Assembly: GCF_010550695.1 (NCBI RefSeq)
Contig: NZ_JAAGOB010000004.1
Span: forward strand, 186,001 to 250,000
Length of the DNA: 64,000 nt
Source of the DNA: Phytoactinopolyspora alkaliphila
GTDB lineage: Bacteria > Actinomycetota > Actinomycetes > Jiangellales > Jiangellaceae
Reading direction: 5' to 3'
Shown here piece by piece: positions 3,577 through 39,184 of the stretch (within the stretch, counting starts at the first letter, position 1; each line of letters begins with the position of its first letter). The notes under the pieces are model-generated. The model ran no database searches. It had not been told where the DNA came from and worked only from the letters and a program-made list of their open reading frames with translations. Both the position numbers and the translations under genes were made by a program.

Positions 3577-3585
3577 GCCCTCCGT

Positions 3586-3667
3586 CACAACCCCTGGCAT
3601 GGGTTGTGGTCGCTGGAAACGTACAAATCGGGCGCGATAACGACCTCAACCCATGCCAGGGGTTGTG
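3586..3667. repeat. Nested palindrome between convergent parB and ddl-like gene
   Basis: Two perfectly complementary 21-base arms (3586-3606 and 3647-3667) flank a 40-base spacer. Each arm is also a hairpin in itself, of the form CAACCC-N7-GGGTTG. The region can therefore form two small stems or one large cruciform. It fills the gap between the 3' ends of parB and the ligase-like gene, which fits a two-way transcription terminator. The double symmetry is more than a terminator needs. Confidence 0.7.
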
Positions 3668-3696
3668 GCGGGGGTGAACAGAGGCGGCGGAAGAGC

Positions 3697-22870: not shown

Positions 22871-23310
22871 CGATCGTTCCTCCTTGGTCAGGCGTCCCTG
22901 GGAGCCGCGCTCGGGTCGCGCGATCCATCACGGCCGCCGACCAACAGGGCGACAAGACACGGGACAGTAGATGACGCTGGCTGCCCCGCACCCGTTCTGT
23001 CAATAGACGACCGATAAGCCGGACAATCGAATGGTAGTCGAGTCGGCCGAATGTTCGATGCCGAAAGAGTGCCGTATGTCCGGGTTGTGACGCAGGCCAT
23101 TGGGTCGGACTCACCCCGTTCGGGGCCCGACTCACCGACGTCCGGTCACTCGTCACATGATCATGTTCACCAGTCCTCTCTGCCCCATGCGGTAGCCGTA
23201 TGCGGCAGAGTAAAACTAGTGAACATGATCACTGGCGTCCAGGCCTGACAGCTGGTACAAGTGCGGAGCGCTGCTCGCATGCTCGCGCGACCACCTGCAC
23301 TGCAGCTCCT
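22871..23310. other. Non-coding region between cvnA and ino1
   Basis: 440 bases with no convincing gene. It separates the 5' end of the conservon operon from the 3' end of ino1. It contains a small CCCCG-TT-CGGGG stem near 23114-23125 and the long imperfect hairpin at 23158-23231. I could not place a confident promoter for cvnA. Confidence 0.7.
23158..23231. repeat. Long imperfect intergenic hairpin with TGATCATGT ends
   Basis: The outer arms TGATCATGTTCAC (23158-23170) and GTGAACATGATCA (23219-23231) match perfectly. CTCTGCC (23178-23184) pairs with GGCAGAG (23204-23210), and the tip 23187-23201 closes on a three-base loop. It lies 80 bases beyond the 3' end of ino1, so it could terminate ino1. 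Its ends resemble those of the hairpin at 37866-37957. Confidence 0.75.
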
Positions 23311-35882: not shown

Positions 35883-37199
35883 GTCAGTGGGCTTCTGACG
35901 CCGCTGGTCAGCAGGACTACCCCCCGCAGGGGTGTGTTCCTGCTGCTCGGCGGCGTCGTTCTCATTCCGTACCTGTTGCTGGCCTTCGGGTTCGCGCAGA
36001 TGTTCGCGGATCCGGCTGTGCCTGTCCTGCCGGTCTCCGTCCTCGTGGCGGTCACGGTGGCGATCGGCACCATTCCCCCGTTCCTCCCGGCCATCCGGAG
36101 CTTGGAGATCGCCGCCGCCCGAGGCTTGCTGGACGCTTCGCTGGCAGAGCCGGAGGAGGCGCCGCCCTGGGAAGCGCGATGGCGTGCCGCGACCTGGTAT
36201 GTCGTGCACCTGACCTGCGGTGGCGCTGTCATGGCGATGCTCCTGTTCGCGGTGCCGATGTTCATCGTGGCGATCGGCCGAGTTACCGGTTCGGAGTCCG
36301 GATGGCTCACCGACACCAACGTGTGGCCGTTCTCCGAGCTGACGGGTGTCTGGTCGGCAGTGGTGGGTGTCGTGCTGCTGCTGGGGGTCGTCTACCTCGT
36401 CGCGGGGATCGGATATGGACTTTCGAGGCTGGCTCCGGTGCTGCTGGGACCGTCGTCGGCCGAGCGCATCCGGCAACTCGAAGCCGCCTCCAGGAAGCTG
36501 AGCGAACGCAATCGGCTCGCCCGTGAGCTGCACGATTCGGTGGGTCACGCGTTGACCATTACGACTCTGCAAGCGGCGGCCGCCCGGCAGGCGTTCGACT
36601 CGGACCCGGCGTTCGCTCGCCAGGCGATGGCCGCTATCGAGGATGCTGGCCGCGCCGCGATGGCCGACCTCGATCACGTGATCGGCCTTCTCCGGCAAGA
36701 CGACGAGCAGCGGGCTATAGACCGGACCGTTGCCAGTGACGCAGGACAGAGCGGGAACACCGCCGCGCCCCAGCGCGATCTCCGGCAGATCGATGCGCTG
36801 ATCGGCGACAGCCGGCGCGCCGGCCTGGTCGTGGACGCCGTCGTCGACGTCGATGCGGCGCGGATTCCCGGCGCTGCCTCCAGGGAGGCGTATCGGATCC
36901 TGCAGGAAGGGCTGACGAACGTGCTCCGCCACGCCGGCCAGGTACGCGTGGAGTTGCGCGTGAGTGCCGGCACTGATGGGCTCCTCGTCGAACTGGCCAA
37001 TCCGGTCCCACCCGAAGGCGTGGCGGCAAGCGAGGCTGGAGACGGCACCGGCCGCGGCCGGTCCGGAGGCGGCCATGGCCTGGATGGGATGCGGGAACGG
37101 GTCGCGGTGCTACGTGGAAGCCTGGAAGCCGGCCGCCGCGATGACCTGTGGGTTGTCCGTGCGTCGCTACCAACGGCGACGACCGAGCGGGGTGCGTGA
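35877..37199 (+). CDS. NarL-type sensor histidine kinase
   Basis: 440 residues: four membrane segments in the first 190, then a coiled coil, a HisKA_3 phosphoacceptor region with H219 in ARELHDSVGHALT, and a HATPase domain (EAYRILQEGLTNVLRHA, GGHGLDGMRERV). It would autophosphorylate and pass phosphate to the response regulator encoded next, with which it overlaps by one base (TGATG). The signal is unknown. The GTG start lies in the stem of a hairpin shared with the end of the ribosomal operon. Confidence 0.9.
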   Translation: MNVSGLLTPLVSRTTPRRGVFLLLGGVVLIPYLLLAFGFAQMFADPAVPVLPVSVLVAVTVAIGTIPPFLPAIRSLEIAAARGLLDASLAEPEEAPPWEARWRAATWYVVHLTCGGAVMAMLLFAVPMFIVAIGRVTGSESGWLTDTNVWPFSELTGVWSAVVGVVLLLGVVYLVAGIGYGLSRLAPVLLGPSSAERIRQLEAASRKLSERNRLARELHDSVGHALTITTLQAAAARQAFDSDPAFARQAMAAIEDAGRAAMADLDHVIGLLRQDDEQRAIDRTVASDAGQSGNTAAPQRDLRQIDALIGDSRRAGLVVDAVVDVDAARIPGAASREAYRILQEGLTNVLRHAGQVRVELRVSAGTDGLLVELANPVPPEGVAASEAGDGTGRGRSGGGHGLDGMRERVAVLRGSLEAGRRDDLWVVRASLPTATTERGA

Positions 37200-37873
37200 T
37201 GACGGCGCAGGTGTCGGTTCTCCTCGTCGACGACGAACCGCTGGTGCGCGCCGGGCTCCGAGTGATCATCGATGCCCAGCCCGACCTGAGTGTGGTCGGG
37301 GAGGCGTCCGACGGCGCGGAGGTCATGCCGCTGGTGTCACAGCTGCGCCCGGACGTCGTCGTGATGGACGTACGGATGCCGGCCGTGGACGGCATCCAGG
37401 CCACTCGGACGTTGTTGTCCCGGGACGATCCGCCCAGGATCCTCGTCGTCACGACGTTCGAGAACGACGACTACGTGTATGACGCGCTCCGAGCCGGCGC
37501 TCACGGCTTCATGTTGAAACGTACGCCTCCCGAACAGATTGTGCAGGCCGTACGCACGGTCGCTCGGGGCGAATCGTTGCTCTTCCCGGAAGCCATCAGG
37601 CGTCTCGCCGCCGCGTACGCCGAAGGTGCGGGCAGCGACGCGCCCGGCCGGCTGGCCGACGCGGGTCTGACCGAGCGTGAGGCGGAGGTTCTGCGGATGA
37701 TGGCCGCGGGGCTGTCCAACCCCGAAATCGCCGGTCAGCTGTACCTGGGCGTCGAGACGGTGAAGACGCACGTGGGCAATGTCCTGGCCAAGCTCGGCGT
37801 GCGCGACCGCACGCAGGCCGTGATCGCCGCCTACGAGTCCGGCTTCGTCAGCCCGGCTAGCCCTCCCAAATGA
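37199..37873 (+). CDS. NarL/FixJ-type response regulator
   Basis: A 224-residue protein with a receiver domain (VLLVDDEPLVRAGLR; phosphoacceptor D57 in VVMDVRMP; conserved Lys in GFMLKRTPP) and a LuxR-type helix-turn-helix (LTEREAEVLRMMAAGLSNPEIAGQL, VETVKTHVGNVLAKLGVRDR). It pairs with the upstream kinase. Its stop codon is part of a long hairpin. Confidence 0.94.
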   Translation: MTAQVSVLLVDDEPLVRAGLRVIIDAQPDLSVVGEASDGAEVMPLVSQLRPDVVVMDVRMPAVDGIQATRTLLSRDDPPRILVVTTFENDDYVYDALRAGAHGFMLKRTPPEQIVQAVRTVARGESLLFPEAIRRLAAAYAEGAGSDAPGRLADAGLTEREAEVLRMMAAGLSNPEIAGQLYLGVETVKTHVGNVLAKLGVRDRTQAVIAAYESGFVSPASPPK

Positions 37874-37957
37874 TCATGTAAACCATGTCTTCTCGTGCTT
37901 CACCATGCCTGCAGCCATGGTGAAGCACGAGAAAACATGGTTTACATGATCATTTGG
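37866..37957. repeat. Very long near-perfect hairpin after the response regulator gene
   Basis: Arms of 42 bases (37866-37907 and 37916-37957) pair with a single mismatch (37889 against 37934) around the 8-base loop CCTGCAGC. The arms begin and end CCAAATGATCATGT / ACATGATCATTTGG, and the left arm includes the TGA stop of the response regulator. It is AT-richer than its surroundings. It can act as a terminator but is far longer than usual for one. Confidence 0.85.
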
Positions 37958-38038
37958 CAAGAGGTTCACTCGTGTGGGGGAGGCGAGTCACCGTCGCAGG
38001 GGATCCGGCGGGCAATGGGCCGGGCGCATGGTGGACAC

Positions 38039-39184
38039 ATGACGCAGCTTGCGACGACGACGATCCACGCACGACAGCCGGCCCACCCCTCCAGGTGGCC
38101 GCGGCGGCTCCCGTACCTGGCAGCGGCCTGGTCTCTCGCCTACGGTGCCGTCGCACTCGCATGGACGATGTCCGGGCGGGGCTTCCCACTCGGTGAGAAC
38201 GATCCCGAAGCGGCGATGTCCTTGCTGCAGGGCCTTCCTGCCGACACGGGAGCGCCCCTGTTCGCCGCTGTGGCGCTCGCTGGCGCCGGCGTGGGGCTGC
38301 TCATGGCACGCGTACGGCACGTCCCGGCGACGGGACGGTACGCGGCACTCGGGTTCGGTGCGGCGACAGCATTCGCCTGGCTGTTGCTCGTCCCCGACAC
38401 GAGGGTCCTCGCGCTCGTCGGCTACCTGCCGATGGCAATCGCCGTGGCACCGTTCGACGCTGAGCTCAGGGACTCCTTCGCGGACGCCATCGACGGAGTG
38501 ATTCTCAACCATGCCGCCGTGCTCGTGGGCGGCTTCCTCTGGGCGGCGACGACGGTCGTGTTCGCCCGCCGCACCGCCGGAGCCTGTGAGCACTGCGGCC
38601 GCGGCGCCGGTACGCCGGGATGGATGACCAGGACGTCTGCCCGACGCTGGGGTCGCTCGGCGGTGGGCGTCGCCGTGGCTGTCCCGGCCCTCTACGCGTT
38701 GACGCGCTGGGTGTGGGTCGCCGGCATCCCCATGGGCATCGACGAGAGCCTTCACGAGGACGGCATGGCCAGCGGTGACCTGTGGGCTGGTGCCTGGCTG
38801 GGGACCTTCGGTCTGGTAGGTGGCGTCCTCACCCTTGGCCTTGTGCAGCGGTGGGGTGAGGTCTTCCCGGCCTGGATGCTCGGGCTGAGGGGCCGGCGGG
38901 TGCCCGTCAAGCTGGCCGTCGTCCCCGCGGCGTTCGTCGCCGTCATTGTCACGTCCGGTGGGATCGGGCTGGTCAAGGCTGGCCTCAGCGACGGTGCGAT
39001 ACGGCTGAACTGGACGGAATGGGCCGCCATCGGACCGGCATTGCTCTGGCCGCTGTGGGGCGTAGCGCTCGCCGTCGCCACGTATGCCTACTACGTCCGG
39101 CGCCGCGGTCAATGCACGGCATGCGGGAAGGACGACGAGCCGCTTTCGCCTCCGCAGGCCGTCACGACCGGCGAAAGACCTTGA
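38039..39184 (+). CDS. Multi-pass membrane protein of unknown function with two Cys pairs
   Basis: 381 residues, about nine predicted membrane segments (for example LPYLAAAWSLAYGAVALAW, LFAAVALAGAGVGLLMA, LLWPLWGVALAVATYAYY). Two cytoplasm-type cysteine motifs, CEHCGRG in the middle and CTACGKD at the end, could bind metal. I do not recognise the family. ATG 38039 opens where the hydrophobic protein begins, but no ribosome binding site is clear. It lies downstream of the two-component pair beyond the long hairpin. Its 3' end overlaps the convergent UbiB gene by 23 bases. Confidence 0.75.
   Translation: MTQLATTTIHARQPAHPSRWPRRLPYLAAAWSLAYGAVALAWTMSGRGFPLGENDPEAAMSLLQGLPADTGAPLFAAVALAGAGVGLLMARVRHVPATGRYAALGFGAATAFAWLLLVPDTRVLALVGYLPMAIAVAPFDAELRDSFADAIDGVILNHAAVLVGGFLWAATTVVFARRTAGACEHCGRGAGTPGWMTRTSARRWGRSAVGVAVAVPALYALTRWVWVAGIPMGIDESLHEDGMASGDLWAGAWLGTFGLVGGVLTLGLVQRWGEVFPAWMLGLRGRRVPVKLAVVPAAFVAVIVTSGGIGLVKAGLSDGAIRLNWTEWAAIGPALLWPLWGVALAVATYAYYVRRRGQCTACGKDDEPLSPPQAVTTGERP

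Follow-up and report, generated by a model that had tools for sequence, protein, structure and literature searches.

The hairpin at the end of a response-regulator gene of Phytoactinopolyspora alkaliphila raises the question of whether it serves this one gene as a strong terminator or belongs to a repeat family, a class of protein-binding sites or a set of small mobile palindromes, as a sequence-only reading of the locus had proposed. The window, that is, the whole stretch of DNA analysed, comprises 64,000 nucleotides. Described there as a 42-bp hairpin with one mismatch that includes a stop codon, the element does fold as a stem some 42 bp long, interrupted by one internal mismatch and closed by a loop of 8 nt; the complete palindrome occupies positions 37866-37957 (no strand assigned), and its arms, 37866-37911 and 37912-37957, are 46 nt each, 96% complementary, contiguous without gap or spacer, and mismatched at two pairs: 37889 C with 37934 A and, close to the loop, 37908 C with 37915 C. 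The palindrome itself furnishes the TGA stop codon (37871-37873, forward strand), in frame with the ORF of the upstream response-regulator gene (Response_reg and GerE domains; 37199-37873, forward strand), which ends within it. The downstream gene on the same strand was placed at 38168-39184 by a simple purpose-made gene caller, and its start is uncertain. The RNA minimum free energy of positions 37846-37977 is -79.1 kcal/mol vs. -33.2 (sd 3.9) in dinucleotide shuffles (z -11.8), none of 200 shuffles folding as stably, and of the 14 inverted repeats listed when arms up to 150 apart were allowed in the window, this one has the longest arms. The remark that the element is AT-richer than its surroundings is borne out as well, its GC content being 45% vs. 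70% across the surrounding 2 kb.

This hairpin belongs to a family of dispersed, non-coding 92-bp palindromes of Jiangellaceae and Actinopolymorpha. In the P. alkaliphila genome (5.5 Mb, 33 contigs), BLAST scored 40 of 84 candidate places, listed at 89-100% identity, and a 13-base arm pattern with at most one mismatch gave 67 forward and 65 reverse matches, vs. 0 and 0 for the same pattern read backwards. The earlier suggestion of a repeat family is proved by these counts, the dispersed copies exclude a hairpin unique in its genome, and the intergenic location that was to be checked holds for the intact copies, 0 of 56 lying inside genes. A search of 60 genomes found matches in 13, P. alkaliphila included: in 3 of 4 other genomes of the genus and in 8 of 17 other genomes of the family, with one weak match among 38 genomes outside the family; up to 14 candidates were scored per genome (14 of 55 in G012, for example), so that a genome with no match is not proof of absence. 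A contig scan for the inverted ends returned at least 100 stretches, from Phytoactinopolyspora halophila, P. halotolerans and P. endophytica, from Jiangella asiatica, J. anatolica, J. endophytica and J. rhizosphaerae, from Actinopolymorpha alba, and from two MAGs (Jiangellales and Sporichthyaceae); a match in Aquimarina litoralis was judged to be due to chance after reading. Plasmid and phage collections contained no match to the palindrome. Matches in Rfam were below the gathering scores and concerned the animal microRNA hairpins mir-764 and mir-218, which we took as generic hairpin matches. None of the open-licence papers listed deals with this repeat, and the accessible part of the J. gansuensis genome paper uses "repeat" and "palindromic" only for CRISPR.

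The length of the element is nearly fixed. In P. alkaliphila, 59 elements with enough flanking sequence were recovered, 56 of them exactly 92 bp long. Among the matches listed in the contig scan, which permitted 69-99 bp between ends (ends included), 98 of 105 distinct elements measured exactly 86 bp, corresponding to 92 bp with three extra bases per side; the 10 of 164 elements that were not 86 bp long were excluded from the location and identity counts. In the 40 copies listed for comparison, the first three bases vary (the very first being C, T or G) and AATGATCA comes next, with the inverse at the other end. Eight Actinopolymorpha copies were kept out of the alignment, leaving 32, eight each from P. 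alkaliphila, P. halotolerans, P. halophila and J. asiatica. At the left end, all of these share AATGATCA and the GT that comes next, and each species has inner arms of its own. In the window copy the left terminal motif is AATGATCATGT (37869-37879, forward strand; AATGATCAYGT across genera), with alignment columns 4-11, 13 and 14 invariant, and its inverted partner on the right is ACATGATCATT (37944-37954, forward strand), one of whose columns is not invariant. The invariance of the terminal motif arises partly by selection, because the copies from other species were found by that motif.

When the 42-pair stem was imposed on the 32 copies, 90.2% of the cells were paired, and 181 cells carried a change on both sides, vs. 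74.5 after shuffling; none of 500 shuffles was as high, and controls with slid partners gave at most 27. The number of pairs with double changes (21 of 42, vs. 19.3 in shuffles and reached by 105 of 500) and the number of further pair types (49 vs. 53.0, reached by 482 of 500) showed no excess. Within P. alkaliphila, two-sided changes that preserve pairing occur at ten pairs, for instance in 10 copies at pair 2/91 and in 5 at pair 3/90; one-sided changes are commoner there (27 and 14 copies at the same pairs), and the loop-proximal pairs 34-36 and 41 are often mismatched.

Among the eight Actinopolymorpha copies listed, most have arms that are small palindromes in their own right, and the total is again 92 bp. 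In three A. alba copies (L141, L171 and L204) the arm reads AATGATCACGT-TT-ACGTGGTCATT; with each arm palindromic, the element therefore resembles a head-to-head pair of REP-like units. The window also holds a diverged shorter relative at 23153-23236 (no strand assigned), with similar ends (ATGATCATGTTCACCAG...CTAGTGAACATGATCA) and an unrelated core, whose flanks match a P. endophytica locus (L190) where a 92-bp copy sits.

The copies lie behind genes. With genes called by our caller, which was trained on P. alkaliphila DNA and also applied to the other species, the 56 copies of 92 bp in P. alkaliphila fall between convergent (26) or tandem (25) genes, with one divergent and four at contig edges; among the matches listed for other species, 43 of 98 copies are convergent, 43 tandem, 6 divergent and 6 at contig edges, none of them inside a gene. 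A stop codon is found within 30 nt of 47 of the 51 convergent or tandem P. alkaliphila copies and inside the copy in 21 of the 51. The corresponding counts of called stops for other species, among the matches listed, are 60 and 29 of 86. When each gene end is counted separately, copies lie at a median distance of 9 nt in P. alkaliphila (68 of 77 within 30 nt) and 12 nt in the other species among the matches listed (85 of 129 within 30 nt).

The sequences around the copies are skewed over approximately 30 nt, with an excess of C 5' of the element and of G 3' of it. Next to convergent P. alkaliphila copies, the first 10 nt have C 0.52 and G 0.21 before the element and C 0.19 and G 0.54 after it; at 135 palindrome-free control 3' ends of the same genome, C is 0.35 and G 0.31 in the 20 nt past the stop. 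Given this C-rich-before, G-rich-after arrangement, insertion into the loops of native terminator stems was considered, and was rejected as a general account. The flanks of the P. alkaliphila copies are no more complementary than permuted ones (pairing within 12 nt 4.11 vs. 4.31; run length 1.02 vs. 0.76, reached by 176 of 2000 permutations; energies reached by 1786 and 1831 of 2000). Native stems at palindrome-free 3' ends show no C/G arm bias, and perfect stems of at least 7 bp (in P. alkaliphila, 7-bp perfect stems within 70 nt) occur at 13 of 135, 18 of 137 and 21 of 123 such ends in three genomes, with 6, 6 and 5 after shuffling. The pooled flanks of other species gave energies reached by 6 of 2000 permutations at 25 nt and by 205 of 2000 at 15 nt, runs reached by 125 of 2000, and pairs reached by 101, 34 and 15 of 2000 at three offsets; these values were left unused, since the species pooled in the set differ in composition.

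The sites of the family are partly common to species, and its sequence is uniform only within species. Comparison of the flanks of the 59 P. alkaliphila elements with those of other species revealed 11 pairs at 10 P. alkaliphila loci, with both flanks matching within about 190 nt in seven pairs and one flank only in four; the window copy is among them, with counterparts in P. halophila (L135) and in genome G001 (L100). Pairs were excluded if, on the matching flank, the distance to the other element exceeded about 1 kb (L088/L212, L052/L198, L039/L226, L032/L217, L023/L162 and L209, L118/L150), and the pair of window 23153 with L190 was also kept out. The median identity among P. alkaliphila copies is 0.91. 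Against P. halotolerans the median over all pairs is 0.76 and the five shared sites give 0.73-0.78; against P. halophila the median is 0.66 and the four shared sites give 0.64-0.70 (species medians from rows L135-L214, with L215-L234 left out). The single P. endophytica shared pair has identity 0.75 vs. a median of 0.70 from three copies only, and the G001 pair stands at 0.71, with no comparison median. Since copies at shared sites are no more alike than unrelated copies from the two species, orthology adds little or nothing, and the copies were homogenised, replaced or re-inserted within genomes. The offset of the element relative to the gene end at a shared site reaches about 18 nt, and may reflect re-insertion at hot spots. 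The active maintenance that the sequence-only reading had considered gains support from the paired changes in both arms and from the uniformity within genomes; its notion of a recent origin stands for the sequences, which can be young, and not for the sites, which can be old.

Of the 15 relatives in which the response-regulator site itself was read, one (G001) carries a version of the element of its own, four Jiangella-genus genomes have a different palindrome, and ten show no palindrome in the sequence seen, one of these with just 55 nt available. The different palindrome (AAGTTGATCTTGGAG...; L101, L102, L104 and L109) occupies the very site of the window hairpin; as read by eye, a short native stem that occurs by itself in other genomes of the genus follows it, and in Jiangella this native stem appears to stay downstream of the inserted palindrome.

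The edge and the centre of the palindrome are used as targets by two insertion sequences. The P. alkaliphila assembly breaks at insertion sequences, and 28 of its 66 contig ends coincide with palindromes. A pattern for the ends of an ISL3-family element gave 51 matches vs. 42 in the control, of which the 15 exact ones were used (seven of one end and eight of the other; the two ends were assigned to one element by inference, because their terminal sequences are similar). All 15 abut the palindrome edge to the base, seven continuing into a whole palindrome and eight only into its terminal octamer, and beside one right end lies a C-terminal fragment of an ISL3 transposase (PF01610, E 1.4e-7). The octamers on the palindrome side are CTAAATGA (three times), CCAAATGA (twice), TCAAATGA and CAAAATGA; all seven have their reverse complement at an opposite ISL3 end, which is what an 8-bp duplication predicts. 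The window copy carries CCAAATGA at this edge (37866-37873, no strand assigned), an octamer position that in other copies is the ISL3 target and is duplicated on insertion; its mirror octamer lies at 37950-37957. When 15 of the 36 weaker ISL3-end matches were read, one (L390) had an arm-like motif nearby.

The IS30-like element yielded 14 ends, 12 exact and 2 with one mismatch, from a pattern with 32 matches vs. 25 in the control. One of these ends sits at a contig tip without flank, and the other 13 all abut the palindrome centre, with a complete half arm at 12 junctions and a degraded outer arm at one. In the window copy this centre is the CTGCAG at 37909-37914 (no strand assigned). An ORF in one nearly whole copy of the element contains HTH_38 (E 6.1e-19), and the outward triplets CCT/AGG and CAT/ATG at its ends, read by eye, suggest a 3-bp duplication. 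None of the 16 weaker matches read, out of 18 (L357, L358 and L361-L374), had a palindrome arm nearby.

An ISL3 end also meets a palindrome edge in relatives, namely in P. halotolerans (L168), J. asiatica (L409) and a Jiangella-genus genome (L412), and a copy in G021 (L407) is preceded by the octamer CCAAATGA. Among ten ISL3 loci of relatives examined from 28 returned, two abut the edge, one has the octamer only, one (L408) is beside an arm-like stretch off its edge, and six have no palindrome arm. At L409 and L412, palindrome sequence is present on both sides of the ISL3 copy or remnant, vs. one side in P. alkaliphila.

Mobility of the palindrome itself is likely, and to this extent the idea of a small mobile palindrome in the sequence-only reading stands; no empty site in a close strain, no clear target duplication and no mobilising enzyme was found. 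The Y1 (HUH) REP-associated transposase domain PF01797 was detected in none of five genomes of the genus, vs. 5 of 14 control genomes; the putative enzyme that spread the family is therefore unlikely to be a RAYT. No clear target-site duplication was seen in 56 P. alkaliphila and 98 other copies at lengths of 2-12 and boundaries shifted from -3 to +3. Two-letter matches exceeded chance only in the other-species set with the boundary placed 2-3 bases inside the element (23 vs. 13.6 and 26 vs. 7.6 of 98), the remainder of both sets giving scattered single counts only. A scan for the ends of a parent transposon in the window, in 100 loci of 2.4-8 kb and in 400 kb of each of three genomes gave 35 unpaired left ends, three of which had a right end within 5 kb. 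To judge from the ends alone, these pairs are probably arms of complete Actinopolymorpha copies or chance occurrences; in the DNA covered, no parent transposon came to notice.

How the family should then be explained depends on which of these observations a given account can accommodate. An ordinary intrinsic terminator that serves the response-regulator gene at this one place would explain a strong stem placed at a stop codon, and is nevertheless refuted as a complete account by the dispersed family with its conserved ends and length; nor does it fit two insertion sequences that target the palindrome or the rarity of native 7-bp stems at control ends. The GC-rich stem and U-tract of an intrinsic (L-shaped) terminator are likewise missing, the element having 45% GC and T-poor flanks: the window hairpin is followed by caagagg, and the 3' flanks in P. 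alkaliphila have G 0.50 and T at most 0.27 at each of the first 20 positions. We regard this account as extremely improbable. A chromosomal binding site of a nucleoid or segregation protein, selected in place, would be expected to keep ends such as AATGATCAYGT; it would presumably need neither some 42 paired bases nor species-specific inner arms nor a location at gene ends, and is very unlikely.

MITEs and full-palindrome miniature elements are non-coding, have terminal inverted repeats and are dispersed. A classical MITE, mobilised by cut-and-paste as a relative of an autonomous transposon with the same terminal inverted repeats, would account for the conserved ends with free inner arms and for a dispersed, non-coding element of near-fixed size. 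It does not predict flanks skewed copy by copy to about 30 nt, no autonomous partner was noticed in the part of each genome scanned, and the two-letter excess, seen only when the boundary is shifted 2-3 bases inwards, does not amount to a clear target duplication; on balance it is an unlikely explanation. Somewhat better placed, and still doubtful, is the view that the family is non-mobile, consisting of inherited sites homogenised by gene conversion, e.g. after hairpin-nuclease breaks at the centre. Shared sites with no signal of orthology in their sequences, paired changes in both arms and the lack of a detectable Y1 transposase in the five genomes of the genus all agree with it, whereas the first dispersal to unrelated loci and the shift of up to about 18 nt at a shared site are left unexplained.

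The reading that we favour, with a probability of about 0.6, is that of a REP/MITE-like palindrome that would form a two-way hairpin at transcript 3' ends and that serves insertion sequences as a landing pad; the RNA function and the spreading we infer from DNA sequence. In RNA, the transcript of the upstream gene, and likewise that of a convergent gene, would end in a very stable stem folded from the copy, and this stem may act as an end without a U-tract (I-shaped or Rho-associated) or as a block to exonucleases. In DNA, the same dyad would be recognised by the ISL3 and IS30-like transposases, and would therefore offer these elements a safe haven. A trans-acting enzyme that reads the conserved ends may have dispersed the copies, and replacement or gene conversion would keep those of one genome uniform. 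A bolder reading, which we offer tentatively and consider rather improbable, is that the sites are kept across species and the sequence is rewritten genome-wide in each species, both arms together, by a RAYT-independent, duplication-free spread or overwriting of hairpins at gene 3' ends. Such a process might be coupled to the ISL3 transposase, which targets the edge in at least two genera, and the locus-specific complementary C-rich and G-rich flanks, as seen in a sister family of genome G004, would be made anew at each site.

Other palindromes of this kind are found in the group. In 400 kb of each of three genomes there are 50 long palindromes, of which 45 are convergent or tandem, 3 divergent, 1 inside a gene and 1 at an edge. 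Genome G004, with no match to the 92-bp family among up to 14 scored candidates, has a 52-bp sister family (ATGATCATGAACACTTTGCCGTG...) with 81 and 81 arm matches vs. 0 and 0 in the control. In 36 copies read, the left and right flanks of a locus complement each other (mean run 6.1 vs. 3.3 permuted, 0 of 2000; runs up to 16), with pyrimidines prevailing on the left and purines on the right; owing to this complementarity the loop-insertion idea keeps some plausibility for the sister family. At L306, L310, L320, L322, L324, L336 and L342 of G004, perfectly complementary locus-specific flanks lie directly outside the 52-bp palindrome. Another palindrome of the window, at 3579-3674 (CACAACCCCTGGCATGGGTTGTGG; arms of 34 nt, 91% complementary), lies a few bases past a stop codon, and five distinct arm sequences, this one included, are found in 0.67 Mb of P. 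alkaliphila DNA. The family CCTTTGCAATGMGCAC...ATACGCACC is common to P. alkaliphila and a Jiangella-genus genome and lies between tandem or convergent genes; its copies are at G000:C1 7860-7960 (L235) and 320193-320253 (L251), and at G015:C1 near 1041695 with others (L277).

Most work on REP-like palindromes has dealt with Gram-negative bacteria, in which the RAYT transposase has been proposed to drive their spread. The genomes with no RAYT detected here have far longer palindromes at the ends of genes, at least dozens of them, with a sequence of each species' own at partly shared sites, and the spread and uniformity of extragenic palindromes become testable in another setting. The family also supplies candidates for transcript 3' ends in a poorly mapped group of bacteria, and the ISL3 and IS30-like elements join the insertion sequences that target palindromes.

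In its action the family is REP- and MITE-like, yet it shows neither the tag of the former nor, in the five genomes of the genus searched, their transposase, and no clear target duplication such as the latter make. As in the REP, BIME and REPIN families covered by the accessible text of PMC3733652, its members are high-copy extragenic palindromes that form species-specific families and serve as targets of insertion sequences. The units described there are 20-40 bp long vs. a single palindrome of 92 bp here, and they carry GTAG or CGTC tags, whereas the ends here, NNNAATGATCAYGT, have neither; by eye, both tags are absent from the ends of the 40 copies listed. The proposed mobilisers of REP and REPIN sequences are RAYT-type (Y1) transposases, of which none was found in any of the five Phytoactinopolyspora-genus genomes. 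With MITEs the family shares its non-coding nature, terminal inverted repeats and dispersal, and it differs from them in that target duplications were not clearly seen and no parent transposon came to light in the DNA scanned.

As candidate transcript ends, the palindromes can be compared with the structured, U-lacking ends of Streptomyces clavuligerus, which have C enriched near -30 and G near -10 and were ascribed to I-shaped terminators or to stem-protected ends of Rho-terminated transcripts (PMC8269248, from the sections available). The palindromes resemble them in a stable stem without a U-tract, preceded by C and with G near the end; the S. clavuligerus ends are not reported as a repeat family in those sections, and the palindromes here are known from DNA alone. 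As landing pads, they resemble the REP sequences into which insertion sequences of the IS3, IS110, IS4, IS256 and IS5 families insert precisely (PMC1525189). The word ISL3 is absent from that text, and the targeting elements here are, by contrast, ISL3 and IS30-like. Finally, the hot spots of IS30 are nearly palindromic and receive the element at their centre, according to the excerpt available of PMC9333248. The apparent duplication here, read by eye, is 3 bp (CAT or CCT) vs. 2 bp for E. coli IS30, and, unlike those hot spots, the target in P. alkaliphila is itself a dispersed repeat.
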